From positions 1 through 37,231 of the forward strand of contig JAQWJH010000036.1 of the NCBI GenBank assembly GCA_029248455.1: a stretch of 37,231 nt of DNA, in the 5' to 3' direction. Positions 429-16,204 of this stretch are shown here, one piece after another. The DNA comes from Flavobacteriaceae bacterium. Lineage in GTDB: Bacteria; Bacteroidota; Bacteroidia; Flavobacteriales; Flavobacteriaceae. The translations under genes and the position numbers were made by a program. Positions within the stretch are counted from its first letter, which is position 1, and each line of letters starts with the position of its first letter. The notes below the pieces were generated by a model, which was given only the letters and a program-made list of their open reading frames with translations, was not told where the DNA came from and did not search any database.

Positions 429-2027
429 ATGAAATCTAGAAGTTCTAATATTGACGTTTTAAGTTCAAGTTTTATTGAAAATGAAATTTCAATGAAAAAG
501 TTATTAAAAGAACTTAATTCTTATTTTGATTTATCAAAATCTGAGGGTAGTAAAGAAAAAATTAAAAGAACAAGAACCAGAAAAAAACTTCTTGCAAGAG
601 AAAAAATTGATTTATTATTAGATAAGAATAAACCTCACATTGAATTAATGTCTTTAGCTGGTTTAAAACATGAAAATGGATTTGGTGCTGGCGGGACTAC
701 TGTTGTTGTTTTAGGGTATGTTTCCGGAACACTTTGCTTGATTAATGCAAATGTTGCCACACGAAAAGCTGGAGCAATTGATTATGCTACAAGTTTAAAA
801 AATTTAAGATTATCTCAAATAGCAAAAGAAAATAAATTATTAACCATTAATTTGGTTGAAAGTGGAGGTGCAAATTTACCAGATCAGGACAGGGTTTTTA
901 ATAATTATGGAAAATTTTTCATGGAAATGTCAAGAAGGTCTAAAGATGGTATTCCAACAATCTCAGTCGTTTTTGGTAACGCAACTGCTGGAGGCGCCTA
1001 TGTGCCAGGCATGTCGGATTATTCTATTTTTCAAAAAAATGCTGCTAAAGTCTTTTTAGCAGGCCCCCCTTTGGTTAAAATGGCAACAAATGAAGATGCA
1101 AAAGATGAGGAATTAGGTGGGGCTATGATGCATAGTACCATTTCTGGAGTCTCTGATTTTTTAGCAAAAGATGAAAAAGAAGCTATTGAGATAACTAAAG
1201 ATCTCATTAAAAAAATTCAACAGCCTAAAGAAAACAAGTTCGAAAATCAATCATCTTTGCCGAAATTTGATAAAAATGAAATTTTAGGAATTATTCCTTC
1301 AAATTTAAAGAAACCGTTCGATATAAGAGATTTAGTAAGAAGGTTTGTCGATAGTTCAGAATTTATTGAATTTAAAGAAAATTATGGTAGAACAATGTTT
1401 TGTTGTTGGACAAAAATTAATGGTTATCCTGTAGGAATTATTGCCAACAATGGAGTTATTTTTATAGAGTCAGCTAAAAAAGCTACACATTTTATTCAAT
1501 TGGCTAATAAATCAAATACCCCATTACTTTTTATTCACAACACAACTGGTTTTATGGTTGGGAAAAAATATGAACAAAATGGAATGATAAATAGTGGGTC
1601 TCAATTAATTCATGCCGTTTCTGGTAGTACTGTTCCACACATCAGTTTACAAGTAGGTAATTCATATGGTGCTGGAAATTATGCTATGTGTGGAAGATCA
1701 TTTGAACCCAGATTTTTATTCTCCTATCCAAATGCCAAGTCTGGTGTTATGGGGGCAGATCAATTATCAGGTGTTATGGAAATTGTAAAAAGAAATTCAG
1801 CATCATCATTAAACAAAGTAATTAATGAGGAAAAACTTCAACATGAAAAGAAAATATTGGCTGAACAAGCCGATGAGAAGGCTAGTGTTTGGCATACAAC
1901 ATCTGAAGTTTGGGATGATGGAGTTATAGACCCAACCGATACCAGAAAATATTTATCCTTGGCATTAGCTACAGTTTACAGTAACGAAATAATAGGATCT
2001 AGTTCTTTTGGAGTATTTAGAATGTAA
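429..2027 (+). CDS. Acyl-CoA carboxylase beta subunit (3-methylcrotonyl-/geranyl-CoA carboxylase-like carboxyltransferase)
   Basis: This is the carboxyltransferase subunit of a biotin-dependent acyl-CoA carboxylase, which moves CO2 from carboxybiotin to an enoyl-CoA. At 532 residues it has the usual length of the MCC-beta/AtuC family (about 535). The N-terminal crotonase-like half carries ESGGANLPDQ at 144-153 and TAGGAYVPGMSD at 186-197, both typical of MCC-beta rather than propionyl-CoA carboxylase. The C-terminal half carries the GNSYGAGNYAMCGR oxyanion segment. It is first in a nine-gene plus-strand cluster, 8 nt ahead of an enoyl-CoA hydratase that resembles methylglutaconyl-CoA hydratase, the next step after MCC. 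The partner biotin carboxylase/biotin carrier subunit is not in the window. Substrate could be 3-methylcrotonyl-CoA or a longer isoprenoid such as geranyl-CoA; sequence alone does not decide this. Confidence 0.9.
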   Translation: MKSRSSNIDVLSSSFIENEISMKKLLKELNSYFDLSKSEGSKEKIKRTRTRKKLLAREKIDLLLDKNKPHIELMSLAGLKHENGFGAGGTTVVVLGYVSGTLCLINANVATRKAGAIDYATSLKNLRLSQIAKENKLLTINLVESGGANLPDQDRVFNNYGKFFMEMSRRSKDGIPTISVVFGNATAGGAYVPGMSDYSIFQKNAAKVFLAGPPLVKMATNEDAKDEELGGAMMHSTISGVSDFLAKDEKEAIEITKDLIKKIQQPKENKFENQSSLPKFDKNEILGIIPSNLKKPFDIRDLVRRFVDSSEFIEFKENYGRTMFCCWTKINGYPVGIIANNGVIFIESAKKATHFIQLANKSNTPLLFIHNTTGFMVGKKYEQNGMINSGSQLIHAVSGSTVPHISLQVGNSYGAGNYAMCGRSFEPRFLFSYPNAKSGVMGADQLSGVMEIVKRNSASSLNKVINEEKLQHEKKILAEQADEKASVWHTTSEVWDDGVIDPTDTRKYLSLALATVYSNEIIGSSSFGVFRM

Positions 2028-2035
2028 AATAATTT

Positions 2036-2848
2036 ATGAGATATTTCAAAAAAAATGATATAAAAAACATAAAATCATACAACTTTGATTTTATAGAATT
2101 GTTTGAATTGAACCATATTTTAACTGTTACACTAAATCGCCCAAAAAAAAAGAATGCCTTACACCCTCAAATGATTAACGAGATAGCATTTGCTTTTCAG
2201 TATGCTTCAAATAATGATAATATTAGAGCTTTAAAGCTCAAGTCGAAGGGTAATGTTTTTTGTTCTGGACTAGACCTCAAAGCCTTGGCTGGTGATGTTG
2301 AGAAAAATAACTCAACTGTTCCGATTGCTAATTCAAAAATATTGATTGGCGATTTATTCAATAAATTATATAAACCTAAAATTTGTCAATTAGAGGGAGA
2401 TGTTTTTGCTGGAGGTTTATTGTTAGTTGCTGGTTGTAATTATGTTATTTCAATTGACGGTCTTAAACTGGGTTTGCCAGAAGTAAAAAGAGGATTATTT
2501 CCAATGCAAGTTATGGAATCTCTATCAAAAGTAATTCCTAATAAAAAAGTAATTGATTGGTGCATTAGAGGATACGATTTAGATGTTAAAATTGCTAATA
2601 AGTGGGGTTTAATTTCTCAAATAGTTGATCAATCTAAAATTGAATCATCTGTTTCAAAATGGTTATCTGAAGTTACTAATAATTCACCCACAGCAATTAA
2701 ATATGGACTGGAGGCGAATCATAAAATAAATACGAGTGAGTCTAATCATGTTTACCTTTCAGAAATGTTAGATTTAGTATTGAACTCCAATGATGCAAAA
2801 GAAGGAATTTCCGCTTTTAAAGAAAAAAGAAAACCAAATTGGAATTAA
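2036..2848 (+). CDS. Enoyl-CoA hydratase/isomerase family, methylglutaconyl-CoA hydratase-like
   Basis: A crotonase-fold protein of 270 residues. The first oxyanion-hole segment FCSGLDL lies at 75-81 and the second, FAGGLLLVAGC, at 124-134. The acid equivalent to Glu164 of rat enoyl-CoA hydratase is present (E149 in GLPEVKRG), but the position of Glu144 holds Leu (about 129). That pattern, a GGL...AGC segment followed by xPEVxxGL, is seen in LiuC/AUH-type methylglutaconyl-CoA hydratases. With the carboxylase gene just upstream, hydration of a glutaconyl-type CoA product is the most reasonable role. The N-terminus is about 25 residues longer than usual; no later ATG keeps the domain intact. 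A strong inverted repeat follows the stop codon, so transcription may partly end here. Confidence 0.85.
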   Translation: MRYFKKNDIKNIKSYNFDFIELFELNHILTVTLNRPKKKNALHPQMINEIAFAFQYASNNDNIRALKLKSKGNVFCSGLDLKALAGDVEKNNSTVPIANSKILIGDLFNKLYKPKICQLEGDVFAGGLLLVAGCNYVISIDGLKLGLPEVKRGLFPMQVMESLSKVIPNKKVIDWCIRGYDLDVKIANKWGLISQIVDQSKIESSVSKWLSEVTNNSPTAIKYGLEANHKINTSESNHVYLSEMLDLVLNSNDAKEGISAFKEKRKPNWN

Positions 2849-2857
2849 ACTCTTTTT

Positions 2858-2889
2858 AAAAAAATATTATGCACGCATAATATTTTTTT
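2858..2889. repeat. Perfect 15-bp inverted repeat (terminator or operator) between hydratase and oxidoreductase genes
   Basis: Arms aaaaaaatattatgc (2858-2872) and gcataatattttttt (2875-2889) are exact reverse complements with a 2-nt centre. The A-tract before and T7 tract after the core resemble an intrinsic terminator. The repeat also ends 2 nt before a TATTTTTG box (2891-2898), where a regulator could block a promoter for the downstream genes. Which of the two roles applies cannot be decided from sequence. Confidence 0.6.
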
Positions 2890-2890
2890 A

Positions 2891-2898
2891 TATTTTTG
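2891..2898 (+). promoter_or_regulatory. Candidate -7 box (TATTTTTG) for the MDR-to-dehydrogenase genes
   Basis: The octamer matches the Bacteroidota -7 consensus TAnnTTTG and lies 39 nt before the oxidoreductase ATG at 2938, immediately after the inverted repeat. No TTG -33 element is visible at the usual 17-23 nt spacing, because that area is occupied by the repeat; this weakens the call. Confidence 0.4.
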
Positions 2899-2937
2899 GC
2901 TTTCTTGTGTTCAATACAGTATTCAAAAATATATTAT

Positions 2938-3933
2938 ATGTTAAAAAATAAAGTTGTAAAACTATCGGTCAGGCCAATTGGTTTTCCGTCAAAAGAAACA
3001 TGGATCTATGAAAATGAAGATGTAAAAGAAATCAATGAAGGTGAAATTTTATTAAAAAATTTATATGTTTCTTTTGATCCAGCTATGAGAGGATGGTTAA
3101 ATGAAGCTAGGTCTTACATTCCGCCTGTAAAAATTGGAGAAGTTATGAGAGCAGGTACATTAGGAGAAGTTGTAAACTCAAAAAATTCAAAATTTAAAAA
3201 AGGTGATATTCTATCTGGTTGGGGAGGGGTTCAACAATATTCGATTTCAAATGGTAAGGGATATTTTAAGGTACCAAACACTGATATACCCCTACCAACC
3301 TATATTGGAACTTTGGGTATGCCAGGAATGACTGCTTATTTTGGAATCCTTGAGGTTGGTAAAATCAAACATGGTGATACTGTTTTAGTTTCTGCAGCAG
3401 CTGGTGCAGTCGGAAGTATTGTTGGTCAAATTGCTAAAATAAAAGGATGTAAGGTTATTGGAATTGCCGGTGGAAAGCATAAGTGTGATTACGTTGTTAA
3501 CGAATTAGGTTTCGATGGTTGTATCGACTATAAAAACGAAAGTGTTAAAAGAGGAATAAAAAGAGAATGTCCTGACGGAATCGATGTTTATTTTGATAAT
3601 GTTGGTGGAGAAATACTAGACGCTGCTTTAATTTTTTTAAAAATGGGAGCTAGAGTTGTAGTATGTGGAGCAATTTCGCAATACAATGAAATGTCTGCAA
3701 AAGGACCAAATAATTATTTGTCTTTACTTGTTAACAGAGCTTCAATGAAAGGTATGGTTGTTTTTGATTTTGCTGAGAAATACCCACTAGCAACAAAAGA
3801 AATGACGGAATGGATTTTAAACGGCACCTTGAAATCAAAAGAAGATGTTTACGAGGGAATTGACAATTTTTATGAGGTTTTTAAAAAGTTATTTAATGGA
3901 GAAAAGAAAGGAAAATTAATTTTAAAGTTATAA
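2938..3933 (+). CDS. NADP-dependent MDR-family oxidoreductase (CurA / prostaglandin-reductase-like)
   Basis: A zinc-free medium-chain reductase of the leukotriene B4 12-hydroxydehydrogenase/CurA/YfmJ type, which uses NADPH to reduce activated double bonds. From the chosen start it has 331 residues, close to the family's 330-345. Signatures are [10 protein letters not shown] near the N-terminus, [13 protein letters not shown] before the Rossmann domain, the dinucleotide-binding [20 protein letters not shown], and [16 protein letters not shown]. The frame is open from 2896, but the first 14 codons have no counterpart in the family, so the ATG at 2938 ([13 protein letters not shown]) is preferred. 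The stop is 2 nt from the thiolase ATG, showing co-transcription. Within a degradation cluster it may act as an enoyl-CoA reductase or remove a reactive enone; the exact substrate is unknown. Confidence 0.85.
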
Positions 3934-3935
3934 TT

Positions 3936-5117
3936 ATGAGAGATGCATTAATAGTTTCAACGGCAAGAACTCCGCTCACAAAATCATATAGAGGAACATT
4001 TAATAACACAACTGCTCCAACAATGGCTGGCTGGGCAATAAGGGAAGCTGTTAAAAGATCGGGTGTTGATCCAAACAAAGTTGATGATGTTATTATGGGT
4101 GCTGCTCTTCAACAAGGAACTACACATGCTAATGTTGCAAGAAACGCTGCCTTAGCTGCTGGTCTTCCAGTTACCGTAAGTGGTATGAGTCTCGACAGAC
4201 AATGTTCATCTGGAATGATGGCTATTTCTACTGCCGCAAAACAAATAATTTCTGATGGAATGGATGTAGTTGTTGGTGGTGGTTTGGATTCAATAAGCTT
4301 AGTTCAAACTCAAAAAATGAATTTAGACAGATATGTTGATGAAAACTTAATTTTAAAACATGAACATATTTATATGCCCATGCTTCAAACTGCTGAGGTT
4401 GTGGCTAAAAGATATAAAATATCCAGAGAATTGCAGGATCAATACGCTTTACAAAGTCAATTAAGAACTGCTAAAGGTCAAAAAGAAGGCAAATTTGATG
4501 ATGAGATTATTCAAGTAACAACTTCAATGGGAGTTATGAACAAAGAAACCAAAGAAATTTCTTTTGTTGACAAGACTATTTCTAAAGATGAATGTAATAG
4601 ACCAACTACCACAATTGAAGGACTGAGATCATTAAATCCTGTTATTGAAGGAGGTTCAATTACAGCAGGAAATGCTAGTCAACTTTCAGATGGTGCCTCT
4701 GCATGTGTTTTGATGGAATCTAAAATCGCTGCACAACATAATGTGACTCCACTTGGTATTTACAGAGGTTTAGCAGTCGCTGGATGTGAACCTGATGAGA
4801 TGGGAATAGGTCCTATTTATGCAGTTCCAAAATTACTAAAACAAAACGGTCTTAAAATGAAAGATATTGGATTATGGGAGTTAAATGAAGCATTTGCTGT
4901 TCAGGTAATCTATTGTAAAGATATATTAGGTATTCCAAATGAGCTTCTCAATGTAAATGGAGGTTCTATTTCTATTGGTCATCCCTACGGAATGAGTGGT
5001 TCCAGAATGGTTGCTCATGCTCTTATTGAAGGAAAAAGAAGAGGAGCTAAATATGTTGTTTCTACTATGTGTGTTGGTGGTGGAATGGGTGCTGCTGGTT
5101 TGTTTGAGGTTGTTTAA
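3936..5117 (+). CDS. Thiolase (acetyl-CoA C-acyltransferase)
   Basis: Degradative thiolase of 393 residues, the normal length. It cleaves 3-oxoacyl-CoA with free CoA, releasing acetyl-CoA (or propionyl-CoA). The acyl-accepting Cys is C90 in LDRQCSSGM; the catalytic His is H349 in [11 protein letters not shown]; the second Cys is C379 in [18 protein letters not shown] is also present. The GHPYGMSG version, instead of the common GHPIGASG, occurs in a subgroup of thiolases associated with clusters for unusual acyl chains. It sits 2 nt after the MDR gene and 48 nt before the SDR, so it would perform the last step of the cluster's beta-oxidation. Confidence 0.92.
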
Positions 5118-5165
5118 TCATATAATAAGCGGTCATAAATTAAAATAATAACTTAAATTAAAAAA

Positions 5166-5906
5166 ATGAAAAGATTAGAAGGTCAGGTAGCTATTGTAAC
5201 TGGTGGAGCTAGAGGAATTGGTCGTGGTATTTGTGAGGTTTTTTGCCGTGAAGGTGCCACAGTAGCTTTGTGGGATGTTTTGGATGGAAGCGAAACAGTA
5301 AAAGAAATAACCCAAAACGGAGGAAATATATTTTTTCAGAAAGTTGATGTTACATCACAAGATTCTGTTGATAATGCAATTGGAGAAATAATAGAAAAGT
5401 ATGGAAAAATAGAAATTCTTATTAATAATGCAGGTATTATTCGAGATAGATCCTTTCTTAAAATGACAGAAGAAGAATGGGACTCCGTTATAAATGTAAA
5501 TCTTAAATCTCTATTTATTGTAACTAAATCGGTTGTTCCTCATATGAAACAAAATGGATATGGAAGAATTGTTTCTGCTTCTTCAATAAATGGCTCAGCT
5601 GGAGCATTTGGTCAAACAAATTATTGTGCTACTAAAGCAGGAATCTCAGGATTTACCAGAGCACTTTGTAAAGAGGTTGGTAAAAATGGTATTACCGTTA
5701 ATGCAGTTGCACCTGGCTTTGTAAAATCAGTAATGTCGGATAGTATGCCGGAAGAGATAATTAAAGCTGGTATAAAAATGATTCCCGTAGGTAGAATTGG
5801 TACACCCGAAGATATGGGTCATGCGTATCTATTTCTTGCCTCTAAAGAAGCTGGATTTGTCAGTGGAATTACACTTCATGCAAATGGAGGAGCAATGCCT
5901 ATGTAA
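5166..5906 (+). CDS. SDR-family 3-oxoacyl/3-hydroxyacyl-CoA dehydrogenase (FabG-like)
   Basis: A classical short-chain dehydrogenase of 246 residues. The cofactor motif TGGARGIG is at 12-19, NNAG at 87-90, and the catalytic set is N112, S140, Y153 and K157. FabG-like SDRs in acyl-CoA degradation clusters oxidise the 3-hydroxyacyl-CoA made by a hydratase. An acidic/polar residue pattern after strand 2 (WDVLDG, D37) favours NAD(H) over NADP(H), which fits an oxidative role. The next gene is a MaoC hydratase 25 nt downstream, whose R-3-hydroxy product would suit an SDR of this type. Confidence 0.88.
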   Translation: MKRLEGQVAIVTGGARGIGRGICEVFCREGATVALWDVLDGSETVKEITQNGGNIFFQKVDVTSQDSVDNAIGEIIEKYGKIEILINNAGIIRDRSFLKMTEEEWDSVINVNLKSLFIVTKSVVPHMKQNGYGRIVSASSINGSAGAFGQTNYCATKAGISGFTRALCKEVGKNGITVNAVAPGFVKSVMSDSMPEEIIKAGIKMIPVGRIGTPEDMGHAYLFLASKEAGFVSGITLHANGGAMPM

Positions 5907-5931
5907 TAATTAATTTAAAATTAAATAAATA

Positions 5932-6408
5932 ATGGAAAATATAGAAGCTTATAAAACTCATTTTGAAAATTTTGAAGAAATGAGTAAAAGTGTTGGTAAA
6001 GAACTTGGAATAAGTAATTGGGTAGAAATAAGTCAAGAAAAGATTAATTTATTTGCAAAAATAACCGAAGATGAACAGTGGATTCATATTGATGCGGAAA
6101 AATCTGCTAAAGAATCTCCTTATAAAACTACAATCGCTCATGGATTTATGGTATTATCTTTAGCTTCTCGATTTTCTTACGATACCGTTAGTATTGCTAG
6201 TGTTAAAATGGGTGTTAATTACGGAGTAGACAGAGTTAGATTTACTAGTGCTACACCCTCTGGAGGACTGGTAAGAGGAAGAGTTTCTTTATTAGAATTT
6301 GAGTCCAAACCCGGTGGAGCAAAATACAAATTAGGTATCAAGGTTGAGCTTAAAGGTCAGGAAAAACCAGTATGCGTTGCTGAAACCTTAGCAATGGGAT
6401 ACGAATAA
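5932..6408 (+). CDS. MaoC-like (R)-specific enoyl-CoA hydratase
   Basis: A single hot-dog domain of 158 residues. The catalytic pair of (R)-hydratases is visible as D47 and H52 in the segment ITEDEQWIHID, followed by the IAHGFMVLSL helix (68-77) that lines the substrate tunnel. The QWIH form places it in the NodN/Rv0130-like subgroup of MaoC proteins. It would add water to a trans-2-enoyl-CoA, giving the (R)-3-hydroxyacyl-CoA that the neighbouring SDR could oxidise. The following gene begins 12 nt after its stop codon. Function as a dehydratase of a ring or branched acyl substrate is possible; the fold and catalytic residues are secure. Confidence 0.88.
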   Translation: MENIEAYKTHFENFEEMSKSVGKELGISNWVEISQEKINLFAKITEDEQWIHIDAEKSAKESPYKTTIAHGFMVLSLASRFSYDTVSIASVKMGVNYGVDRVRFTSATPSGGLVRGRVSLLEFESKPGGAKYKLGIKVELKGQEKPVCVAETLAMGYE

Positions 6409-6419
6409 AAACAAAAAGT

Positions 6420-7202
6420 ATGGAAAAAGCAGTTTTATTTGAAAAAGAAAAAAATATTGCAATTATTACTTTTAACAGACCGCAAAGATACAATGCGGTA
6501 AATCAAGACTTAGTTGATGGTATTAATGATTCGCTTTCAATTGTTGAAAACGATAATGATATTAGAGCTGTAGTTTTGACTGGAAATGGTAAAGGGTTTT
6601 GTTCAGGAGCTGATATGTCAGTTTTTGGAGGTAAAGTTTCATCCGAACAAAGACGTGATTATATAGTCGAACAATATCAACCATTAATGAATCGTTTTTT
6701 TAAAATAAAAAAACCGATAATTGGAGCTATTAATGGAACTGCTGCAGGAGTTGGTGCAGCATTTGCATTAGCTTGTGATTTAAGAGTGATGAGTAAAGAA
6801 AGTGCCTTGCTTTATGCTTTTGTAAACATAGGGCTTGGTCCAGACGGTGGTGCTAGTTGGTTATTGGCTAGACAAGTAGGATATAGTAAAGCCTTAGAAA
6901 TTGCAATTAGCGGTAAAAAGATTTTTGGAGAAGAATGTTTAAATTTAGGTTTAACTAATAAAATTGTTAAAACAAATGAGGTTTTAAATGATGCCAAAAA
7001 ATGGGCTAATGAACTTTCTGTTCGACCTACTTTGGCAATTGGTATAGCAAAAGCTGATATGATGTATTCAATGGATAATAATTTAAGTGACACAATTGCC
7101 TTTGAAGCACAGGAGCAAGTTGCAGCTTTTAATAGTTATGACTTAAAGGAAGGAGTTACTGCTTTTATTCAAAAAAGGCCTGCAAAATTTTTAGGAAAAT
7201 AA
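6420..7202 (+). CDS. Enoyl-CoA hydratase/isomerase family, PaaG-like
   Basis: A second crotonase-fold enzyme in the cluster, 260 residues. It has FCSGADM (60-66) and the oxyanion segment INGTAAGVGAAFALACD (104-120). At the catalytic position it reads NIGLGPDGGASWLLARQVG, with D142 corresponding to the Asp of PaaG-type isomerases and no Glu at the usual hydratase positions. PaaG and related enzymes shift double bonds or open/rearrange rings, for instance 1,2-epoxyphenylacetyl-CoA to oxepin-CoA. Here it may act as a delta3,delta2-enoyl-CoA isomerase for unsaturated or branched chains. No other phenylacetate genes are nearby, so it should not be named paaG. Confidence 0.85.
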   Translation: MEKAVLFEKEKNIAIITFNRPQRYNAVNQDLVDGINDSLSIVENDNDIRAVVLTGNGKGFCSGADMSVFGGKVSSEQRRDYIVEQYQPLMNRFFKIKKPIIGAINGTAAGVGAAFALACDLRVMSKESALLYAFVNIGLGPDGGASWLLARQVGYSKALEIAISGKKIFGEECLNLGLTNKIVKTNEVLNDAKKWANELSVRPTLAIGIAKADMMYSMDNNLSDTIAFEAQEQVAAFNSYDLKEGVTAFIQKRPAKFLGK

Positions 7203-7231
7203 AAACATTAAAAAAAAGATAAAAAAAAATA

Positions 7232-8428
7232 ATGGAAACAAAAGTAAATACTGATTTAACTAATTTTCGAATGGAAACTAGAAAATGGTTAGAAGATAAT
7301 TGTCCTTTAAGCATGAGAGAACCTACTAAAGATCCTTCACAATTATACTGGGGGGGAAGAAATGGAGAATTTAGTAGCGATGATCAAAAATTATGGTTCG
7401 AAAGAATGCTTGAAAAGAAGTGGATTGTTCCTTACTGGAAAGTAAAATATGGGGGAGGAGGACTCTCTATAGAAAAAAATAATATTTTAAATCAAGAAAT
7501 GGGTAGGCTTGGCTGTAGAAAACCTCATTACAATTTTGGTATTTCTATGCTAGGACCTGCAATGTTAAAGTTCGCATCAGAAGAACAAAAGCTTAATTAT
7601 TTACCTGATATAGTTCAAGGAAAAATTAGATGGTGTCAAGGATACAGTGAGCCAAATGCTGGAAGTGATTTAGCAAACCTTCAAACTAAAGCAGAAGATA
7701 AAGGAGATTATTTTTTAGTTACTGGTTCCAAAGTTTGGACATCATATGCTGAAAAAGCAGATTGGATTTTTTGCCTTGTAAGAACCGATTCAAGTTGTTC
7801 AAAACATACAGGTATTAGTTTTTTATTAATTGATATGGCCTCTGAGGGTGTATCCACTAGACCAATAAAACTTATCAGTGGAAAGTCACCATTTTGTGAG
7901 ACTTTTTTTGATTCAGTGAAGGTTCCAAAAGCAAACTTAGTTGGAACTTTGAATGATGGTTGGACAATTGCCAAGTACTTGTTAACTCATGAAAGGCAAA
8001 TGATAGGTGGAATAGGTGAAACGGATAAAAAATTACATATTAGTAATGAAGCTATAAATGTTATGTCAAAAAATAATGGAATTTTATCTGATACTATTTT
8101 ACGATCAAAAATTTCAGAATTTGAAATGAACGAAGAAATTTTTGATTTAACAATTAGAAGAACTATGGATGAAGAAAAATCTGGGAATAATTCAGGAGCT
8201 GCTTCCTCTTTTTTTAAATATTATGGAACCGAATTAAATATTCAAAGAGAAGAATTAAGATTAAAAATTAATGGTTTTAGTTCAACTGAATGGAACAGCA
8301 AGGCTTCAGAAAACGGAAAACAAGCTCGTTACTTTTGTAGAACTAAAGGTAACTCCATTGAGGGAGGTACACATGAAGTTCAATTAAATATTATAGCAAA
8401 AAGAATCTTGGGGCTTCCCACTAAATAA
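7232..8428 (+). CDS. Acyl-CoA dehydrogenase, catalytic (Glu-bearing) chain of a probable heteromeric enzyme
   Basis: Acyl-CoA dehydrogenase fold, 398 residues. The middle domain has the YSEPNAGSDLANLQTKA segment (138-154), and WTSYAEKADW follows. A Glu sits at position 254 in LLTHERQMIGG, aligned with the catalytic base of isovaleryl-CoA dehydrogenase and FadE26-like chains. By contrast the REQFGxxIG and QxxGGxG motifs that bind FAD across the subunit interface in ordinary homotetramers are absent; the equivalent part has diverged. The C-terminus ends in EGGTHEVQLNIIAKRILGLP, with Gly rather than Glu at the medium-chain catalytic position. The next gene, 6 nt downstream, encodes a second chain with the opposite pattern. 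This is the arrangement of alpha2beta2 dehydrogenases in steroid-side-chain catabolism. Confidence 0.9.
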   Translation: METKVNTDLTNFRMETRKWLEDNCPLSMREPTKDPSQLYWGGRNGEFSSDDQKLWFERMLEKKWIVPYWKVKYGGGGLSIEKNNILNQEMGRLGCRKPHYNFGISMLGPAMLKFASEEQKLNYLPDIVQGKIRWCQGYSEPNAGSDLANLQTKAEDKGDYFLVTGSKVWTSYAEKADWIFCLVRTDSSCSKHTGISFLLIDMASEGVSTRPIKLISGKSPFCETFFDSVKVPKANLVGTLNDGWTIAKYLLTHERQMIGGIGETDKKLHISNEAINVMSKNNGILSDTILRSKISEFEMNEEIFDLTIRRTMDEEKSGNNSGAASSFFKYYGTELNIQREELRLKINGFSSTEWNSKASENGKQARYFCRTKGNSIEGGTHEVQLNIIAKRILGLPTK

Positions 8429-8434
8429 AAATAA

Positions 8435-9559
8435 ATGGCTTTAATAATAAACGAAGAACAGCAAATGCTTAAAGAATCTACTAAGGAATTTTTAGATTTA
8501 AAATCTCCTATCTCTAGTATGAGAAAATTAAGAAATAATAATTTTCAAACTTATAATAAGGAATTGTGGATGGAAATGGTTGAAATGGGTTGGACGGCTT
8601 TAACTATACCTGAAAAATACAATGGATTAAATTTTGGATATGTGGGTTTAGGACAAGTTTTCGAAGAAATGGGGAGAAAATTAAGTATTTCACCAATTAT
8701 TTCTACAGTTTTAATGTCAACGACATTAATTTCTCTTTCAAAAAATGAAATTTTAAAATCCAATTTATTTAAAGAAATCATGAACGGCACTAAACTATCT
8801 ACTGTTGCTCATGATGAGGGAGTGCATCACAATCCAGAAATTTTAAATTCTTTGATTTCTAAAGAAGGAGATTTTTTTGTTTTAAATGGAAAAAAGAATT
8901 TTGTAATTGATGGTAGTATTTCAGATTATCTAATAGTAACTGCAAATAATGAATCTGGGTCAAATGTTTTAATATGTGTTGTCGATTCCAAATCCACTGG
9001 AGTAGAATATAATAATAAAGTTCATATGGATTCTAGAACCTATTCTGATATAACATTTAATAATGTTAAAATTAAAAATGATAATTTTTTATCTTTTGAA
9101 GGAGATGGTAAGTTGATTTTAGAAAAAACTCTAGATATTACTAGAATAGGCTTAGCAGCGGAAATGTTAGGTAATATTCAAGAAGCATTCGAAATTACTG
9201 TAAATTACTTAAAAGAAAGAGAACAATTTGGTGTGAAAATTGGATCTTTTCAAGCGTTACAACATCGTTGTGCTTTAATGTTTGGAGAAATAGAATTATG
9301 TAAGTCTATAGTATTGAAAGCTTTGCAAGCTATAGATTCTAATGATTCTAGTCTTTCAAAATATTCTAGTCTAGCCAAAGCTAAGTTAGGGTCTATTTTA
9401 CAATTGGTCAGTAATGAAGCTGTCCAGATGCACGGAGGAATTGGGGTAACAGATGATGCAGATATCGGATTTTTTCTTAAAAGAGCTAGAGTCGTGCAAT
9501 CAATGTTAGGAGATTCAAATTTTCACTTAGATAAATTAGCTAAAATCAAAAATTATTAA
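8435..9559 (+). CDS. Acyl-CoA dehydrogenase, FAD-binding non-catalytic chain of a probable heteromeric enzyme
   Basis: Acyl-CoA dehydrogenase fold, 374 residues. It keeps the FAD-contacting motifs REQFGVKIG (262-270) and QMHGGIGVTDD (331-341), but where its partner has Glu254 it reads DITRIG, without a base, and the C-terminal YEGT-type Glu is also missing. The EPxAGSD segment of catalytic chains is replaced by AHDEGVHHNP (125-134). It is therefore expected to be inactive alone and to pair with the product of the preceding gene. It is the last gene of the plus-strand cluster; the stop codon forms part of an inverted repeat shared with the convergent aldehyde dehydrogenase gene. Confidence 0.9.
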   Translation: MALIINEEQQMLKESTKEFLDLKSPISSMRKLRNNNFQTYNKELWMEMVEMGWTALTIPEKYNGLNFGYVGLGQVFEEMGRKLSISPIISTVLMSTTLISLSKNEILKSNLFKEIMNGTKLSTVAHDEGVHHNPEILNSLISKEGDFFVLNGKKNFVIDGSISDYLIVTANNESGSNVLICVVDSKSTGVEYNNKVHMDSRTYSDITFNNVKIKNDNFLSFEGDGKLILEKTLDITRIGLAAEMLGNIQEAFEITVNYLKEREQFGVKIGSFQALQHRCALMFGEIELCKSIVLKALQAIDSNDSSLSKYSSLAKAKLGSILQLVSNEAVQMHGGIGVTDDADIGFFLKRARVVQSMLGDSNFHLDKLAKIKNY

Positions 9560-9581
9560 TTAGTTCATTAATTGACTAATT
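9558..9581. terminator. Possible bidirectional terminator between convergent genes
   Basis: Arms aattagt (9558-9564) and actaatt (9575-9581) are exact reverse complements around a 10-nt loop, spanning the two convergent stop codons and followed on the plus strand by a T-rich run. The stem is short and almost all A/T, so its strength is doubtful. Confidence 0.35.
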
Positions 9582-11128
9582 TATTTTAGATTAAAATTAA
9601 TTCCTTGAGCCAGGGGAGTTTCAGATGAATAGTTAATAGTATTTGTTTGCCTTCTCATATAAACTTTCCAAGCGTCAGACCCGCTTTCTCTACCACCGCC
9701 TGTTTCTTTTTCTCCGCCAAAGGCTCCACCAATTTCAGCTCCTGATGTACCTATGTTTACATTGGCAATACCACAATCACTTCCTGTATGTGACAAAAAC
9801 TTTTCTGATTCTTTTAAATTTTCAGTTAAGATGGCCGAGGACAGGCCCTGTTTAACATCATTCATTAATTGTATAGCATTTTCAACTTTACCCTCATACT
9901 TTACAAGATATAAAATTGGAGCAAAAGTTTCTTTTTGAACTATTTGTGCGCTATTTTTTATTTCTGCAATAACTGGCTTTACATAGTTCTCACTTTGGTA
10001 ATTATTTCCTTTTAAATTCCCTCCATTAACAATTATTTTACCACCCTGTTTTACAATTTCTTTAATTGCATTGAGATATTGGTTTACTGCATCTTTGTCA
10101 ATTAATGGTCCCATATGATTAGTTTCATCTAAAGGATTACCAATTTTAATTTGTTTGTAAGCCTTTTTTAGTTCATTTTTCACTTTTTCAATAATAGATT
10201 CATGAATTATTACTCTTCTTGTAGAGGTACAACGTTGCCCACAGGTACCAATTGCTCCAAAAACTATATTACTTATAGCATGTTTTATATCTGCGTTTTC
10301 TGTTATAATAACTGCATTATTTCCTCCCAATTCTAATAATGTTTTTCCTAATCTAAATCCTACTCTTTTAGCAACATCTTTTCCCATTTTAGTAGATCCA
10401 GTTGCAGATAAAAGATTTATTCTTGGATCATCAGACATTAACTTTCCAATATCTTTTCCCCCATTTATTAAGCATGAAACTCCATTTGAAATTTTATTTT
10501 CTTTCAAGACCTCTAAAATTAAATTTTGGCAAGCTATGCTACATAAAGGAGTTTTCTCAGAGGGCTTCCAAACACAAACATTTCCACATATCCATGCTAA
10601 GGAAACATTCCAGCTCCACACAGCTACAGGAAAATTAAAAGCAGATATAATTCCAACTACACCTAAAGGGTGATATTGTTCATACATTCTGTGATTGGGT
10701 CTTTCAGAGTGCATTGTAAAACCATATAGTTGCCTGGATAATCCAACTGCAAAATCACATATATCAATCATTTCTTGTACTTCTCCCAATCCTTCTTGTA
10801 AAGATTTTCCCATTTCCCAAGAAACCAGTTCACCTAATTTTGTTTTATTAGTCCTAATCTTATTTCCTAATAGACGAACTAAATTTCCTCGTTGAGGTGC
10901 TGGAATATTTCTGAATTCTAAAAAAGCATTCTGAGCTTCATTGATTATTTTTTCATAGTCCTTTTTACTAGCAAATTGAATAGTCCCTATAAGCGAATTA
11001 TCTACTGGACTGTAAGATTTTATAATTTGTCCGGATCCAAACCATTTTTCACCAAAAGAACACCCTTTTTGATTATTTGAAATACCCAATTTTTCTAAAA
11101 TATAATTTACTTTTTTATTTTTTTTCAT
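9581..11128 (-). CDS. amaB: ALDH7-type aldehyde dehydrogenase (L-aminoadipate-semialdehyde / piperideine-6-carboxylate dehydrogenase)
   Basis: An NAD-dependent aldehyde dehydrogenase of 515 residues in the ALDH7 (antiquitin) family, which oxidises 2-aminoadipate 6-semialdehyde to 2-aminoadipate. Catalytic Glu266 is in LLELGGN and the nucleophile Cys300 is in CGQRCTSTRR, where Arg299 matches the conserved substrate-binding Arg before the Cys in human ALDH7A1. The C-terminal half carries the family signature NVNIGTSGAEIGGAFGGEKE and then TGGGRESGSDAWKVYMRRQ. The start codon overlaps the stop of the DUF1338 gene (ATGA), so both are translated from one message. With the upstream lysine 6-dehydrogenase-like gene, the lysine-degradation role is well supported. 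The symbol is by family and context. Confidence 0.92.
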   Translation of the reverse strand: MKKNKKVNYILEKLGISNNQKGCSFGEKWFGSGQIIKSYSPVDNSLIGTIQFASKKDYEKIINEAQNAFLEFRNIPAPQRGNLVRLLGNKIRTNKTKLGELVSWEMGKSLQEGLGEVQEMIDICDFAVGLSRQLYGFTMHSERPNHRMYEQYHPLGVVGIISAFNFPVAVWSWNVSLAWICGNVCVWKPSEKTPLCSIACQNLILEVLKENKISNGVSCLINGGKDIGKLMSDDPRINLLSATGSTKMGKDVAKRVGFRLGKTLLELGGNNAVIITENADIKHAISNIVFGAIGTCGQRCTSTRRVIIHESIIEKVKNELKKAYKQIKIGNPLDETNHMGPLIDKDAVNQYLNAIKEIVKQGGKIIVNGGNLKGNNYQSENYVKPVIAEIKNSAQIVQKETFAPILYLVKYEGKVENAIQLMNDVKQGLSSAILTENLKESEKFLSHTGSDCGIANVNIGTSGAEIGGAFGGEKETGGGRESGSDAWKVYMRRQTNTINYSSETPLAQGINFNLK

Positions 11129-12033
11129 TTTCTATTAGTTTGTTTTGTGTATGTGCTTTCAAAAATTTTATCTGCATTTGATGCTTCAAACCCATCTCTA
11201 CGATGTTTTGATTCAATTTTTTCAATCGGTATATTTTTATATTCTGGAAGTATTTTTCTTTCTGCAAACTCTACATAACTTCCAGAAATTAATGAATTTA
11301 TATTGTCAGAAAATTTAGCTTTAACTTTATTAGCAACTGTACTGCTTTGAAGTAATAAACCATCCTTACTTTTTTTGATAAAACCACCAGAGTCATTTAG
11401 TTTGATGTCTATATTCTCTAAAAATCTATTAAACTTTTTTAAAGTATTATAATTTTTATTTAAATCATGAACACTTATTGTATAGTGATTTAGATAATAC
11501 CTATTGTATATTACCCAGGACGCATATTCACTTTCTTTTAATAAGTTATTATAGTCTTCAAATAATGGAATGCTCCACAAAGGCTTTTTTAAAAATTTAA
11601 TTACATTATTAACATTATCAAGATCTAACTCATCAACGGGATCTTTCTTCACCTGATCAGTATATTTATATATTATGTTTTTTGACTTTTTTGAAAGCTC
11701 ATCTACTTTCAATTCACTAATAAATATCCTTGGCATATTTTTTTCGTTGTGAGAATACCAATAAGCATTAAGTTTTTTTAATTTAAAATTTAAAAAATCT
11801 CTTTTTTTATAACCATGGTGTATGAAGATTTTTTCAAATGAATTAATACCTAAGTTTTTTACACCCATTGTTCTAAAAGCTATATGATCATTTACTATAT
11901 CATTTTGATTTGAAATAATTTGTCTTTGAATTAATTCATTGGTAATTTTATTTACATAGGGAACTCTTTTTGAATAGCTTTTAAATAATGATTCAAGTAT
12001 AATGTGAATGGGTTTTTTTTCTTTAAAATTCAT
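11125..12033 (-). CDS. DUF1338 protein, probable 2-oxoadipate dioxygenase/decarboxylase (HglS-like)
   Basis: A protein of 302 residues with the DUF1338 (YdcJ/HglS) signature. HglS of Pseudomonas putida converts 2-oxoadipate and O2 to D-2-hydroxyglutarate and CO2 using a metal held by two His and one Glu. Candidate equivalents here are H50 with R54 in NDHIAFRTMG, H183 in LNHYTISVH, and E255 in SYVEFAERK. The C-terminal RRDGFEASNADKIFEST (278-294) is a further family hallmark. It is shorter than P. putida HglS, as is usual for the Bacteroidota/plant-type versions. It lies between genes for the preceding steps of lysine breakdown and overlaps the aldehyde dehydrogenase gene by 4 nt, which strongly supports the assignment. 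The aminotransferase making 2-oxoadipate is not in the window. Confidence 0.85.
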   Translation of the reverse strand: MNFKEKKPIHIILESLFKSYSKRVPYVNKITNELIQRQIISNQNDIVNDHIAFRTMGVKNLGINSFEKIFIHHGYKKRDFLNFKLKKLNAYWYSHNEKNMPRIFISELKVDELSKKSKNIIYKYTDQVKKDPVDELDLDNVNNVIKFLKKPLWSIPLFEDYNNLLKESEYASWVIYNRYYLNHYTISVHDLNKNYNTLKKFNRFLENIDIKLNDSGGFIKKSKDGLLLQSSTVANKVKAKFSDNINSLISGSYVEFAERKILPEYKNIPIEKIESKHRRDGFEASNADKIFESTYTKQTNRK

Positions 12034-12042
12034 TACATAAAT

Positions 12043-13104
12043 TTAATTTAAAAATAGTTTACCTGAGTTGGTTTTTAAAAATTCAACGTAAGGAATTTCT
12101 TCCTGTTTTATAAATCCCTTGTTTGGAAGTTTTCCATTTGCAACCATTTCAATAACAGCAGCTACGGATGCAGCTGTAGTCCATGAAATTGCTCTCCATT
12201 TTTTTCCTTGAATTTCAATCGGATAATATGATTTAAAAAACTCACTTCTTGAAATTTTATTTTTTTTCCATCCTTCAACAACTGCATAAACATAAACTAC
12301 ATCATCATCAACAGGCGGTTTAGCGTTACTTAATATTTCTTCAAGTTTGTTTTTATCATTTTTAAGTATGAGTTCATACATTAGAAATCTCATCAATTTT
12401 CCATGTCCTGGGTATCTTATTGTTTTATAATTTAAGGTGTCAAGTTTTCCTTCATATGTATCACACATTGTCCCAAGACCACCAGATGTGGTAAATGCTT
12501 CAAATTCTTGTCCCTCTATGTTTATATATTCAAAACCATCAAGCGATGGTACTGTTTTTTTTATTCCATTTTGTATAACCTCTGCATCATTTAGATACTC
12601 ATTAATAACACCATGAGGAGACCATGTAAAAGAATAAGCAAGTTGTCCATTAGGATATCTGGGTAATGCCCCAACCCTAAGTTCAATATCCCTTAATCTA
12701 TCAAATTTCATTGCTATATTATTTCCAATGATTCCAATTAAACCCGGAGCTAATCCGCATTGAGGTGCCATTATCCTATTTCCTGTTAAACTTAATTTTT
12801 TTATATATTTTGTTGTTTGAACATCTTCGGTCAAATCAAAATAATGTAGGTTTAGTTTATGAGCTAATTTTGCTATTTTTTTATTTAAAAAAAATGGTAA
12901 TGCAGAAACTACAGCATCATGTTTTTTAAAAATTGATTTCATTTTTTTTAAATTTCCAACATCCTCTGGAATCACTTTAAATGGTAGTTTGTAATTATAA
13001 TGTGGTTTTTTTTGATCTACCCCAATTACATTGAATTTTTTTGAAAGTAAGGTGCCAACTAATGAACCAACTTTTCCCATACCAAGAACTAAAATATCTT
13101 TCAT
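12043..13104 (-). CDS. Lysine 6-dehydrogenase-like / saccharopine dehydrogenase family protein
   Basis: An NAD(P)-dependent enzyme of 353 residues with an N-terminal Rossmann motif GMGKVG (8-13). Segments such as APQCGLAPGLIGIIGN, VGALPRYP, a TSGGLGTMCDT stretch and LNYKTIRYPGHG match the lysine 6-dehydrogenase (LysDH) of Geobacillus closely in order and wording as I recall it. LysDH deaminates the epsilon-amino group of L-lysine to give aminoadipate semialdehyde, the substrate of the ALDH7 enzyme two genes downstream. A saccharopine dehydrogenase would give the same product but is normally longer (about 440) and needs a saccharopine-forming partner, absent here. It is the first gene of the minus-strand cassette, 9 nt before DUF1338, with a palindrome just upstream. 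Confidence 0.85.
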   Translation of the reverse strand: MKDILVLGMGKVGSLVGTLLSKKFNVIGVDQKKPHYNYKLPFKVIPEDVGNLKKMKSIFKKHDAVVSALPFFLNKKIAKLAHKLNLHYFDLTEDVQTTKYIKKLSLTGNRIMAPQCGLAPGLIGIIGNNIAMKFDRLRDIELRVGALPRYPNGQLAYSFTWSPHGVINEYLNDAEVIQNGIKKTVPSLDGFEYINIEGQEFEAFTTSGGLGTMCDTYEGKLDTLNYKTIRYPGHGKLMRFLMYELILKNDKNKLEEILSNAKPPVDDDVVYVYAVVEGWKKNKISRSEFFKSYYPIEIQGKKWRAISWTTAASVAAVIEMVANGKLPNKGFIKQEEIPYVEFLKTNSGKLFLN

Positions 13105-13124
13105 TTATAACAATTTTAACTTTT

Positions 13125-13144
13125 ATTGTTATAAATATAACAAT
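13125..13144. promoter_or_regulatory. 20-bp palindrome, candidate operator of the lysine cassette
   Basis: attgttata (13125-13133) and tataacaat (13136-13144) are exact reverse complements separated by two bases. The palindrome covers 21-40 nt upstream of the lysine-dehydrogenase ATG. A third copy of the half-site, ataacaatt, is at 13107-13115 directly before the start codon. On the minus strand the centre reads TATATTTA, close to a -7 box, so a bound protein would cover a promoter. The regulator is unknown. Confidence 0.5.
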
Positions 13145-13266
13145 TATAAAAAAATTTATACGATAAATTTTAGATATAATTATTTTAAATAAAACTGTGA
13201 TTAATTGGTAGTAGCGAAAAATTTATTCTTTAATATTAAACCAATTAAAATTTTTGAAGAGTTGAG

Positions 13267-13650
13267 TTATATTTTCTCTAATTTGATCCATTTGTTTTCT
13301 GAATCTAATTTAAAAGCACCAACAAATATTTTATCCCACATATCAGGTTCAATAAGTGATAAAAATAAGGTTTCATCTTCTTTTTGATACAAAAAATATA
13401 CTTTACCTTTTTCAGGTTCAAATTTAAAGTCCGAAGCATAAACTAATTTATTCCATTCGTAATTTTCAATTAATTTTTGATAATCTTCTTTAATCTCATT
13501 AAATTTTGCTTCAAAATATTGATTTGTTTTTATAATTTTTTCACTTCTCCATACACCAACATCATTGGGCTTTATAGCAGGAGCTCCCACGTTTGTTCCG
13601 TAAGGGAGAATATTGGGATTATCAGCTACGTTATCAGGCTTTTTTTTCAT
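13267..13650 (-). CDS. DUF2452 domain protein
   Basis: A cytoplasmic protein of 127 residues without signal peptide or membrane segment. It begins MKKKPDNVADNPNILPYGTN and then VGAPAIKPNDV, the pattern of the DUF2452 family of Bacteroidota, and continues with the family's LVYASDFKFEPEKGKVYFLY core. Length is typical. It stands alone between the lysine cassette and a convergently unrelated envelope gene. A TATATTTG box on the same strand at 13676-13683 fits a -7 element 26 nt before the start. No function is established for the family to my knowledge; the aromatic-rich core suggests a compact beta-rich fold. Confidence 0.82.
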   Translation of the reverse strand: MKKKPDNVADNPNILPYGTNVGAPAIKPNDVGVWRSEKIIKTNQYFEAKFNEIKEDYQKLIENYEWNKLVYASDFKFEPEKGKVYFLYQKEDETLFLSLIEPDMWDKIFVGAFKLDSENKWIKLEKI

Positions 13651-13675
13651 TAAATTTTTATTCTTTATTTTATTG

Positions 13676-13683
13676 CAAATATA
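13676..13683 (-). promoter_or_regulatory. Candidate -7 box (TATATTTG) for the DUF2452 gene
   Basis: Exact match to TAnnTTTG on the minus strand, 26 nt upstream of the ATG at 13650. No TTG -33 element at standard spacing was seen. Confidence 0.4.
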
Positions 13684-13747
13684 AAGTGATTAATTAAAGA
13701 AAAAAATAACTTAATTCTTTATTAATTTATTTTTAAATTTAGATATT

Positions 13748-14200
13748 ATGAAATACTCTTTTATTTTATTTTTTTTAATTTCTTTTTTTTCTAATTCTCA
13801 AGACTCATCATTTACTGAACATTATGGACAAAAAATTGATTTTCAAGGAATTGATAATTACTATTCTGTAAAAAATGATTTATTAAAAGTTAATAAAAAG
13901 CATGTGAAAATTAAAGGTAAGATTTTATCATCATGTCCTATGAAAGGTTGTTGGATGAAAGTTAATGTTGATAACGATACATTACTTGTAAGGTTTAAAG
14001 ATTATGGATTTTTTGTACCCAAATCAGGATTAGAGGGAAAATCTACGATTCTTAGAGGTGTAATTTCTATAGACACTTTAAGTGTTGCTCAATTAAAACA
14101 TTATGCAGAGGATGCAGGTAAAACCATTAAGGAAATTAATTTAATTAAAAACCCTCAACTAACATTATCAGTCTTAGCTGATGGAGTTTTAATTGAGTAA
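13748..14200 (+). CDS. Secreted DUF4920 protein
   Basis: A 150-residue protein with an N-terminal signal peptide (MKYSFILFFLISFFSNSQ, cleavage near residue 18). The mature part carries KIKGKILSSCPMKGCWMKV, an OB-fold-like strand with a CPMKGCWM cysteine/methionine cluster, and RFKDYGFFVPKS followed by AQLKHYAEDAGKT; all are hallmarks of DUF4920. The Cys-Pro-Met-Lys-Gly-Cys segment suggests metal or redox binding in the periplasm, but this is inference. It is followed 20 nt downstream by another small secreted protein gene, so they may share a transcript. Confidence 0.82.
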   Translation: MKYSFILFFLISFFSNSQDSSFTEHYGQKIDFQGIDNYYSVKNDLLKVNKKHVKIKGKILSSCPMKGCWMKVNVDNDTLLVRFKDYGFFVPKSGLEGKSTILRGVISIDTLSVAQLKHYAEDAGKTIKEINLIKNPQLTLSVLADGVLIE

Positions 14201-14980: not shown

Positions 14981-16204
14981 ATGTCTACAAAAAAAGAATT
15001 TGATGTAATTGTATGGGGAGCCTCTGGATTTACTGGAAAATTAGTATGTGAGTATATTTTTAAGAAATTCCGAACTAATAATGAACTGAAATGGGCAATG
15101 GCAGGAAGAGATTTGTCAAAACTTGAACCAGTAAGAGCTGAAATTGCTGATCATACTGTACCCATTGTAATTGCTGACAGTAATGATATGAAAAGCTTAG
15201 ACTTAATGACTCAGCGAACAAAAGTTGTATGTACAACAGTTGGTCCCTATGCCAAATATGGATCTAAATTAGTTCAATCATGTATTGAAAATAAAACACA
15301 TTATTGTGATTTAGCTGGCGAAGTTCAATGGATTCGAAAAATGATTGATAAATATCATGAAAAAGCTAAACGGAATACTGTCAAGATAGTTAACTCTTGT
15401 GGATTTGATTCAATTCCATCTGATTTAGGTGTTTATTATATCCAAAAAGAGTCAAAACAAAAGTTGAATAAAAGAGCTAAAAATATTAATATGCGTGTCG
15501 CTGGAATTAAAGGTGGGATCAGTGGAGGCACCTATGCCAGTTTAAGTAACGTAACAAAAGAAGCTTTTAAGGACAAAAATATTTTTAAAGTTGTTACTAA
15601 CCCATATGGTTTAAATCCTATCAATGAGCAAACAGGGCCCGATAAAAATGATTTAAGAAAAATAGTTTTTGATAAAGTATCAAGAAATTGGATTGGACCA
15701 TTTATTATGGCAAGTATAAACACTAAAATTGTAAGAAGAAGTAATGCATTAATGAATTATACTTATGGAAAGGATTTTACATACAATGAGGCAACTTTAA
15801 GTGGAGAAGGATTTACAGGTATGATTAAAGCTTACACTTTAGTTATTCCCTTAGTAATTTTAATGAGTGCTAAGCCAGGATCACTTTTGAAAAAAATTGT
15901 TGATTTTATTTTACCTAAACCAGGTGAAGGACCTAATAAAAAAAACAGAGAATCAGGGTTTTATAATCTAAGATTTTATGTTAAACTCGAGGACGACTCG
16001 GATGCGTTTGCAAAGGTTACAGGTGATATGGATCCTGGATATGGATCGACTTCAAAAATGTTAGCTGAAAGTGCTATTTGTTTAGCTAAAGATAAATTAC
16101 CAAATAGCTATGGAGTTTTAACACCGTCATCAGCGATGGGTGATTCAATTTTAAAAAGACTTCAATCAAACGCAGGGTTATCTTTTAGCTTTGTAACTAA
16201 ATAA
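14981..16204 (+). CDS. Saccharopine dehydrogenase-like NADP-binding oxidoreductase (SCCPDH / trans-acting enoyl reductase type)
   Basis: A protein of 407 residues with the Rossmann motif WGASGFTGKLVCEYI near residue 10, followed by WAMAGRDLSKL, TVGPYAKYGSKLV, THYCDLAGEVQWIR and VNSCGFDSIPSDLGVYY. These are the hallmarks of the SCCPDH/trans-acting enoyl reductase group (mycobacterial Rv2953-like), which is unrelated in function to lysine metabolism in spite of the name. The C-terminal part has a short hydrophobic stretch (around 280-295), typical of the family. Mycobacterial members reduce a double bond in lipid biosynthesis; in flavobacteria the role is not known to me. It is followed 15 nt later by the DUF1080 gene. 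Confidence 0.85.
   Translation: MSTKKEFDVIVWGASGFTGKLVCEYIFKKFRTNNELKWAMAGRDLSKLEPVRAEIADHTVPIVIADSNDMKSLDLMTQRTKVVCTTVGPYAKYGSKLVQSCIENKTHYCDLAGEVQWIRKMIDKYHEKAKRNTVKIVNSCGFDSIPSDLGVYYIQKESKQKLNKRAKNINMRVAGIKGGISGGTYASLSNVTKEAFKDKNIFKVVTNPYGLNPINEQTGPDKNDLRKIVFDKVSRNWIGPFIMASINTKIVRRSNALMNYTYGKDFTYNEATLSGEGFTGMIKAYTLVIPLVILMSAKPGSLLKKIVDFILPKPGEGPNKKNRESGFYNLRFYVKLEDDSDAFAKVTGDMDPGYGSTSKMLAESAICLAKDKLPNSYGVLTPSSAMGDSILKRLQSNAGLSFSFVTK

Follow-up and report, generated by a model that had tools for sequence, protein, structure and literature searches.

The window analysed here is a stretch of 37,231 nucleotides from a Flavobacteriaceae bacterium (contig JAQWJH010000036.1), in which three consecutive genes of the reverse strand, at positions 9581-13104, probably constitute a lysine-catabolic cassette that would lead from lysine to 2-hydroxyglutarate without passing through saccharopine. 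On the sequence evidence, this reading is given a probability of roughly 78%. The three genes are the following:

12043-13104, reverse strand: putative L-lysine 6-dehydrogenase (LysDH), first gene of the cassette; 353 amino acids, Pfam domains Sacchrp_dh_NADP and Sacchrp_dh_C, nearest solved structure 3abi.
11125-12033, reverse strand: putative 2-oxoadipate dioxygenase/decarboxylase (HglS, plant FLO7-type); 302 amino acids, PF07063, match to 6w1k, H/H/E/R residues.
9581-11128, reverse strand: predicted L-piperidine-6-carboxylate (P6C)/2-aminoadipate semialdehyde dehydrogenase (ALDH7); 515 amino acids, NCBIfam NF050084, relatives in the PDB.

A lysine-to-2-hydroxyglutarate route had been proposed in the initial annotation of this DNA, which placed LysDH-like, DUF1338/HglS-like and ALDH7 genes at 9581-13104. 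The reading frames are found at these positions, their families are borne out by Pfam, and the proposal is very probably right in view of the families, the conserved residues and the recurrent linkage of the genes. The same annotation described the genes as adjacent and partly overlapping: the adjacency holds, as does the overlap for HglS and ALDH7, whose frames share 4 bases (11125-11128), but LysDH and HglS are separated by a 9-base gap (12034-12042). The source draft genome amounts to 1.55 Mb in 124 contigs and is 73% complete.

From the genes, families, conserved residues and recurrent linkage that are observed, we infer the substrates and the direction of the following steps. LysDH would oxidatively deaminate the epsilon-amino group of lysine, yielding 2-aminoadipate 6-semialdehyde, which would cyclise to piperideine-6-carboxylate, no saccharopine being formed. 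ALDH7 would then convert piperideine-6-carboxylate, or the semialdehyde, to 2-aminoadipate, and a transaminase encoded elsewhere, for which an aspartate aminotransferase (AspAT)-like gene is a candidate, would produce 2-oxoadipate. Finally, the Fe(II)- and O2-dependent HglS would decarboxylate and hydroxylate 2-oxoadipate to 2-hydroxyglutarate.

The 302-residue protein of the central gene matches the Pfam family HGLS (PF07063) with an E-value of 4.7e-59 and 201.1 bits, compared to a gathering score of 25, and its nearest solved relative is the rice FLO7 structure 6w1k (5.5e-63, nearly full-length alignment). A profile built from 42 HglS homologues matches 6w1k, 3lho and, weakly, 3iuz, and at E <= 1 finds no further chain named hydroxyglutarate synthase, that of Pseudomonas putida included. 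Besides, the protein has no match in NCBIfam, the equivalog models NF049974 and NF050083 not being reached, while a long rhizobial form of HglS passes NF049974. Because the profile finds FLO7 and no other hydroxyglutarate synthase chain, and because NF049974 is passed by the long rhizobial form but not by it, the window protein is assigned, on its matches, to the short, plant FLO7-type branch of PF07063, distinct from the long one. It is 97% identical to its counterpart in a metagenome-assembled genome labelled uncultured Flavobacteriaceae and 88% identical to that of AG-319-A09. Two Flavobacteriaceae genomes (G272 C8 and G651 C2; L003 and L018) encode a long HGLS protein that is not of the FLO7 type and matches the Pfam model over its entire length (E about 1e-157).

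According to PMC7286885, P. putida HglS, Escherichia coli YdcJ and the plant enzymes convert 2-oxoadipate to 2-hydroxyglutarate, the metal being bound by two histidines and one glutamate and the distal carboxylate by Arg74 (Arg64 in FLO7). In the window protein, H50, H183, E255 and R54 are in register with FLO7 and invariant in 42/42 aligned proteins, namely the window protein and 41 of the 42 homologues fetched, L059 having been omitted for its over-long frame. H50, H183 and E255 are thus the likely Fe(II) ligands, and R54 the likely substrate arginine. The two-His, one-Glu and Arg pattern noticed in the initial annotation is therefore confirmed by conservation, and the DUF1338/HglS identity given there is supported by the FLO7 match and these residues, with the refinement that the protein is of the plant type. 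By alignment, the metal ligands and the substrate arginine are common to the window protein, rice FLO7 and Arabidopsis AT1G07040, for both of which the reaction of 2-oxoadipate and O2 to 2-hydroxyglutarate and CO2 has been demonstrated (PMC7286885, 2020). Unlike these two, the window protein is bacterial and belongs to an operon-like group with LysDH and ALDH7; in plants, aminoadipate semialdehyde is reported to be reached through the bifunctional LKR/SDH (PMC7253579). Between P. putida HglS and FLO7, sequence identity is no more than about 15% (PMC7286885).

At the pathway level, the cassette has the 2-oxoadipate intermediate and the final HglS step in common with the HglS pathway of P. putida. 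In that organism, the pathway is entered through D-lysine and pipecolate chemistry, whereas the entry encoded in the cassette would consist of LysDH and ALDH7.

The third gene is anchored in a curated model. Its product matches Aldedh at 1.6e-127, passes the NCBIfam equivalog NF050084 for L-piperidine-6-carboxylate dehydrogenase (799.4 bits, cut-off 730), on which the original ALDH7 assignment can now rest, and has antiquitin and ALDH7A1 among its relatives in the PDB.

As for the first gene, its 353-residue product contains Sacchrp_dh_C (1.1e-21) and Sacchrp_dh_NADP (4.6e-11) domains. Searched as a single sequence, it matches 3abi at 2.3e-24 and the human saccharopine dehydrogenase domain at 8.5e-8; searched as a profile of 19 homologues, it matches 3abi at 8.4e-31, followed by 5l78 (6e-9), 2axq (3.3e-8) and 1e5l (4.4e-6). 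Its length is close to that of 3abi (365 amino acids), solved saccharopine dehydrogenases being longer (450-497 amino acids). The 3abi structure, Pyrococcus horikoshii PH1688, was labelled an uncharacterised protein by its depositors and is named lysine 6-dehydrogenase in PMC10413350; it belongs to the Sacchrp_dh family, is of similar size and is the nearest solved relative of the window LysDH, which is nevertheless only a distant one (E 2e-24). A Y-x-T-x-R run in the window LysDH (Y226, T228 and R230) resembles, by pattern only, the substrate residues modelled for the Geobacillus enzyme LysEDH, Y238/T240/R242 (PMC6697735), H181 not being placed. Y226 and R230 are invariant in the 19 homologues, T228 being the majority residue only. 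An AlphaFold model computed from the single sequence reached a pLDDT of 33.8 and was not used.

The linkage of the first two genes was then considered across 397 Flavobacteriaceae genomes. HGLS proteins occur in 49 of them. A LysDH homologue is present at E <= 1e-10 in 65, of which 16 have one of at least 55% identity and the others one of 27-38%. Close LysDH and HglS are found together in 12 genomes, i.e. in 12 of the 16 LysDH holders (Fisher p = 4e-9 over the 397 genomes, uncorrected for relatedness), and the two genes are neighbours in all 12, for one of which (G358) this is deduced from two contig ends. Given this neighbourhood in 12/12 genomes and the Fisher value, the adjacency of LysDH and HglS is not due to chance. 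ALDH7 follows the pair in 7 of the 12 genomes and lies elsewhere in G530, where it stands behind an amino acid permease, and in G680 and G337. Of 42 HglS neighbourhoods, 15 have LysDH next to HglS, 17 have ALDH7 close to HglS, and 10 contain the whole trio. The trio is shared by two bacterial families and occurs in two arrangements: seven genomes have the order LysDH-HglS-ALDH7, and three, from another family, HglS-LysDH-ALDH7. The neighbours of some HglS genes without LysDH showed no common theme. Class-wide, HglS is patchy (13/295 genomes).

Outside the family, 72,556 plasmid records were searched at the protein level; 83 contained LysDH homologues, all below 60% identity, and 12 of these regions were viewed. 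Two of them, in Rhizobium leguminosarum Vaf10 and on Agrobacterium fabrum pRiA4b, contain a LysDH homologue sharing about 40% identity with the window protein, together with a P6C dehydrogenase, a pyridoxal phosphate (PLP) aminotransferase, a long HglS and an FAD/Fe-S protein resembling D-2-hydroxyglutarate (D-2HG) dehydrogenase. For Vaf10, the P6C dehydrogenase (798.2, cut-off 730), HglS (738.9, cut-off 550) and FAD-oxidase_C family assignments were checked. Both clusters unite a LysDH homologue, a P6C dehydrogenase and a PF07063 HglS, as the flavobacterial cassette does; they differ by the long, NF049974-type HglS and by the presence of the aminotransferase, the D-2HG-dehydrogenase-like protein and AsnC/LysR regulators, whereas the flavobacterial cassette has a short FLO7-type HglS and three genes only. 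The pRiA4b cluster (L161 8001-17068), which would lead from lysine to 2-oxoglutarate, has an indoleacetamide hydrolase gene within a few kilobases.

Partial associations were also seen: LysDH is followed by an ALDH7-like protein in Legionella adelaidensis (770.0, cut-off 730) and in Ruegeria (66% identical to the Vaf10 P6C dehydrogenase). On the Ruegeria plasmid (L166 5992-12952), the LysDH homologue and the aldehyde dehydrogenase adjoin cyanophycinase and cyanophycin synthetase genes. On two Deinococcus plasmids (L155 3822-7547 and L157 3812-7580), a FLO7-type HglS (53-54%) is flanked by a DAO-type FAD oxidoreductase and an aldehyde dehydrogenase, and these loci possibly encode the same pathway with an oxidase replacing LysDH; the D. 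proteolyticus aldehyde dehydrogenase, the only one of the two scored, fails NF050084.

The reading most in competition with a lysine 6-dehydrogenase is that the first gene encodes a glutamate-forming saccharopine dehydrogenase, the cassette then being the tail of a saccharopine pathway whose lysine-ketoglutarate reductase is encoded elsewhere, as in plants. The Pfam domains would be identical in both cases. The reductase, without which no saccharopine would be made, was looked for in 18 genomes through a PF05222 search, each match being sorted by tblastn. It was found in none of the 12 genomes with both LysDH and HglS, among them G435, a single contig with 100% completeness. What PF05222 matched in these 12 resembles alanine dehydrogenase (broken in G530), except in G680, where it matched nothing, and G429 adds one weak, unclear partial match with AlaDh_PNT_C only. 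In the 73% complete source genome, the sole AlaDh_PNT_N protein found is likewise alanine dehydrogenase. Conversely, the reductase is present in all six other genomes tested (G316, G335, G383, G542, G313 and G659), the G316 copy matching the reductase domain of human AASS at 2.2e-37; G313 and G659, the two genomes tested that have HglS and no close LysDH, count in favour of the saccharopine reading. In the six neighbourhoods of these reductase genes, no gene similar to the window LysDH was seen. Because of the match to 3abi, far above that of the longer solved saccharopine dehydrogenases, the lack of a detectable reductase in 12/12 genomes and the two rhizobial clusters, lysine 6-dehydrogenase is favoured, in agreement with the initial annotation, and a saccharopine dehydrogenase appears unlikely.

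A number of observations nonetheless weigh against the proposed cassette. No NCBIfam model matches LysDH or the FLO7-type HglS. The four closest HglS-negative LysDH homologues (G316, G335, G383 and G542; 55-59% identity) all share their genomes with lysine-ketoglutarate reductase, and their branch could therefore consist of saccharopine dehydrogenases. In a tree of 27 sequences, the four form one group (94/90) that is not placed firmly relative to the 15 HglS-linked proteins. The presence of ALDH7 alone says little, since matches at E <= 1e-120 occur in 364 of the 397 family genomes, and G483 and G650, both 78% complete, have the LysDH-HglS pair and no ALDH7 match at 1e-120. In 8 of the 12 plasmid LysDH regions viewed, HglS and P6C dehydrogenase are both missing from the vicinity. 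Lastly, FAD-oxidase_C, the usual D-2HG dehydrogenase family, was found in 0 of the 22 genomes of the genus, with 11 of 14 controls matched, so that 2-hydroxyglutarate would be formed there without its usual oxidase.

The near-universal ALDH7 must have a role independent of LysDH and HglS, and at 8 of the 42 loci HglS stands opposite a LysR-type gene, with neither LysDH nor ALDH7 in the vicinity at 7 of these 8. Both points would suit a scheme in which LysDH and ALDH7 interconvert lysine, P6C and pipecolate, for example for osmolyte supply, HglS acting on 2-oxoadipate of another origin and the adjacency reflecting shared regulation only. Such a scheme is very improbable given that LysDH occurs mainly with HglS (12/16), lies beside it in every genome that has both, and is part of two complete rhizobial clusters. 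Finally, a carboxy(nor)spermidine dehydrogenase (CASDH), or another Sacchrp_dh relative from polyamine metabolism, belongs to the same superfamily (PMC10413350), but this identity was rejected as most improbable, the CASDH-like chains 4RL6 and 4INA being outside the 13 sequences that the LysDH profile finds at E <= 1 and the window protein having no His-Glu-Glu run, which PMC10413350 presents as central to CASDH.

Returning to the proposed lysine cassette, two steps would be carried out by enzymes encoded outside it, and the initial annotation had pointed to a 2-aminoadipate transaminase and a D-2-hydroxyglutarate dehydrogenase as the activities to be looked for in the genome. Regarding the former, the survey covered PF00155 proteins, and 11 PF00155 places were found in the source draft genome. 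The AspAT-like protein of L091 is 42% identical to the aminotransferase of the rhizobial cluster and is a candidate for the transaminase. The PF00155 protein of the window itself (24126-25316) was rejected for this role, as it is glycine C-acetyltransferase. Lysine 6-aminotransferase (LAT, TIGR03251), considered as another source of P6C, was above cut-off in 0/73 family genomes (49 with HglS, 4 with LysDH and no HglS, 20 with neither) and also in 0/14 control genomes, so that this search had no positive control.

Regarding the latter, the dehydrogenase in its usual FAD form was missing from all 22 genomes of the genus, and since these are 51-93% complete, the absence of FAD-oxidase_C is not due to chance gaps. 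Family-wide, homologues of a YdiJ-like protein (L053:2740-5661; 1e-100) occur in 339/397 genomes, including 6 of the 12 with LysDH and HglS and not the other 6; in 8 of the 42 neighbourhoods the gene is no more than about 6 kb away from HglS, which it directly follows in L084. D-2HG dehydrogenase was rejected as an HglS-linked gene, being rarer in genomes with HglS (37/49) than in those without (302/348; p = 0.05). It is conceivable, as a tentative proposal, that the genus runs lysine catabolism through HglS without the usual FAD-type D-2HG dehydrogenase, either thanks to an unrecognised enzyme oxidising 2-hydroxyglutarate, or because the FLO7-type HglS forms a different product or enantiomer, the D configuration being presumed here, or by excretion of 2-hydroxyglutarate.

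The surroundings of the cassette in the window were also described. Upstream and on the same strand lies a DUF2452 gene (13267-13650, reverse strand), which is kept upstream in L046 and L073; since it was not seen in the upstream stretch of L047 and L072, it is probably outside the cassette. Further upstream, the 407-residue product of 14981-16204 (forward strand), tried as a saccharopine-type partner, was rejected: it has Sacchrp_dh_NADP only, with no Sacchrp_dh_C match, and is not to be taken for a saccharopine dehydrogenase. On the other side, an operon-like run converges on the cassette:

429-9559, forward strand: carboxyl transferase, enoyl-CoA hydratase, zinc-type reductase, thiolase, short-chain dehydrogenase/reductase (SDR), MaoC dehydratase, enoyl-CoA hydratase and two acyl-CoA dehydrogenases.

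The two acyl-CoA dehydrogenases resemble the large and small subunits of pimeloyl-CoA dehydrogenase, with scores far below cut-off, and the last five genes of the run abut the cassette in 5/5 close relatives checked (L046, L047, L069, L072 and L073). A pattern scan of 9400-13800 gave 26 promoter-like sites, compared to 26.8 in shuffles, and 3 terminator-like sites, compared to 1.1; neither was used.

Each kind of enzyme in the cassette is already known. No description of a flavobacterial one-step LysDH paired with an HglS of plant type turned up in the literature searched, subscription papers being mostly outside its scope, and within this incomplete coverage the search agrees with the earlier remark on how poorly the route is documented in flavobacteria. 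Taken together, the data suggest that the plant-type FLO7 oxygenase has bacterial counterparts in operon-like groups whose other members name its pathway, and that lysine enters this pathway by a one-step dehydrogenase in place of saccharopine. Around a constant core, the entry module may be exchangeable: LysDH would serve in the flavobacteria described here as well as in the two rhizobial clusters, an FAD oxidase may take its place in Deinococcus, and other flavobacteria, to judge from two genomes, may use the saccharopine route. In the genus of small-genome flavobacteria, the fate of 2-hydroxyglutarate stands out as a testable gap.

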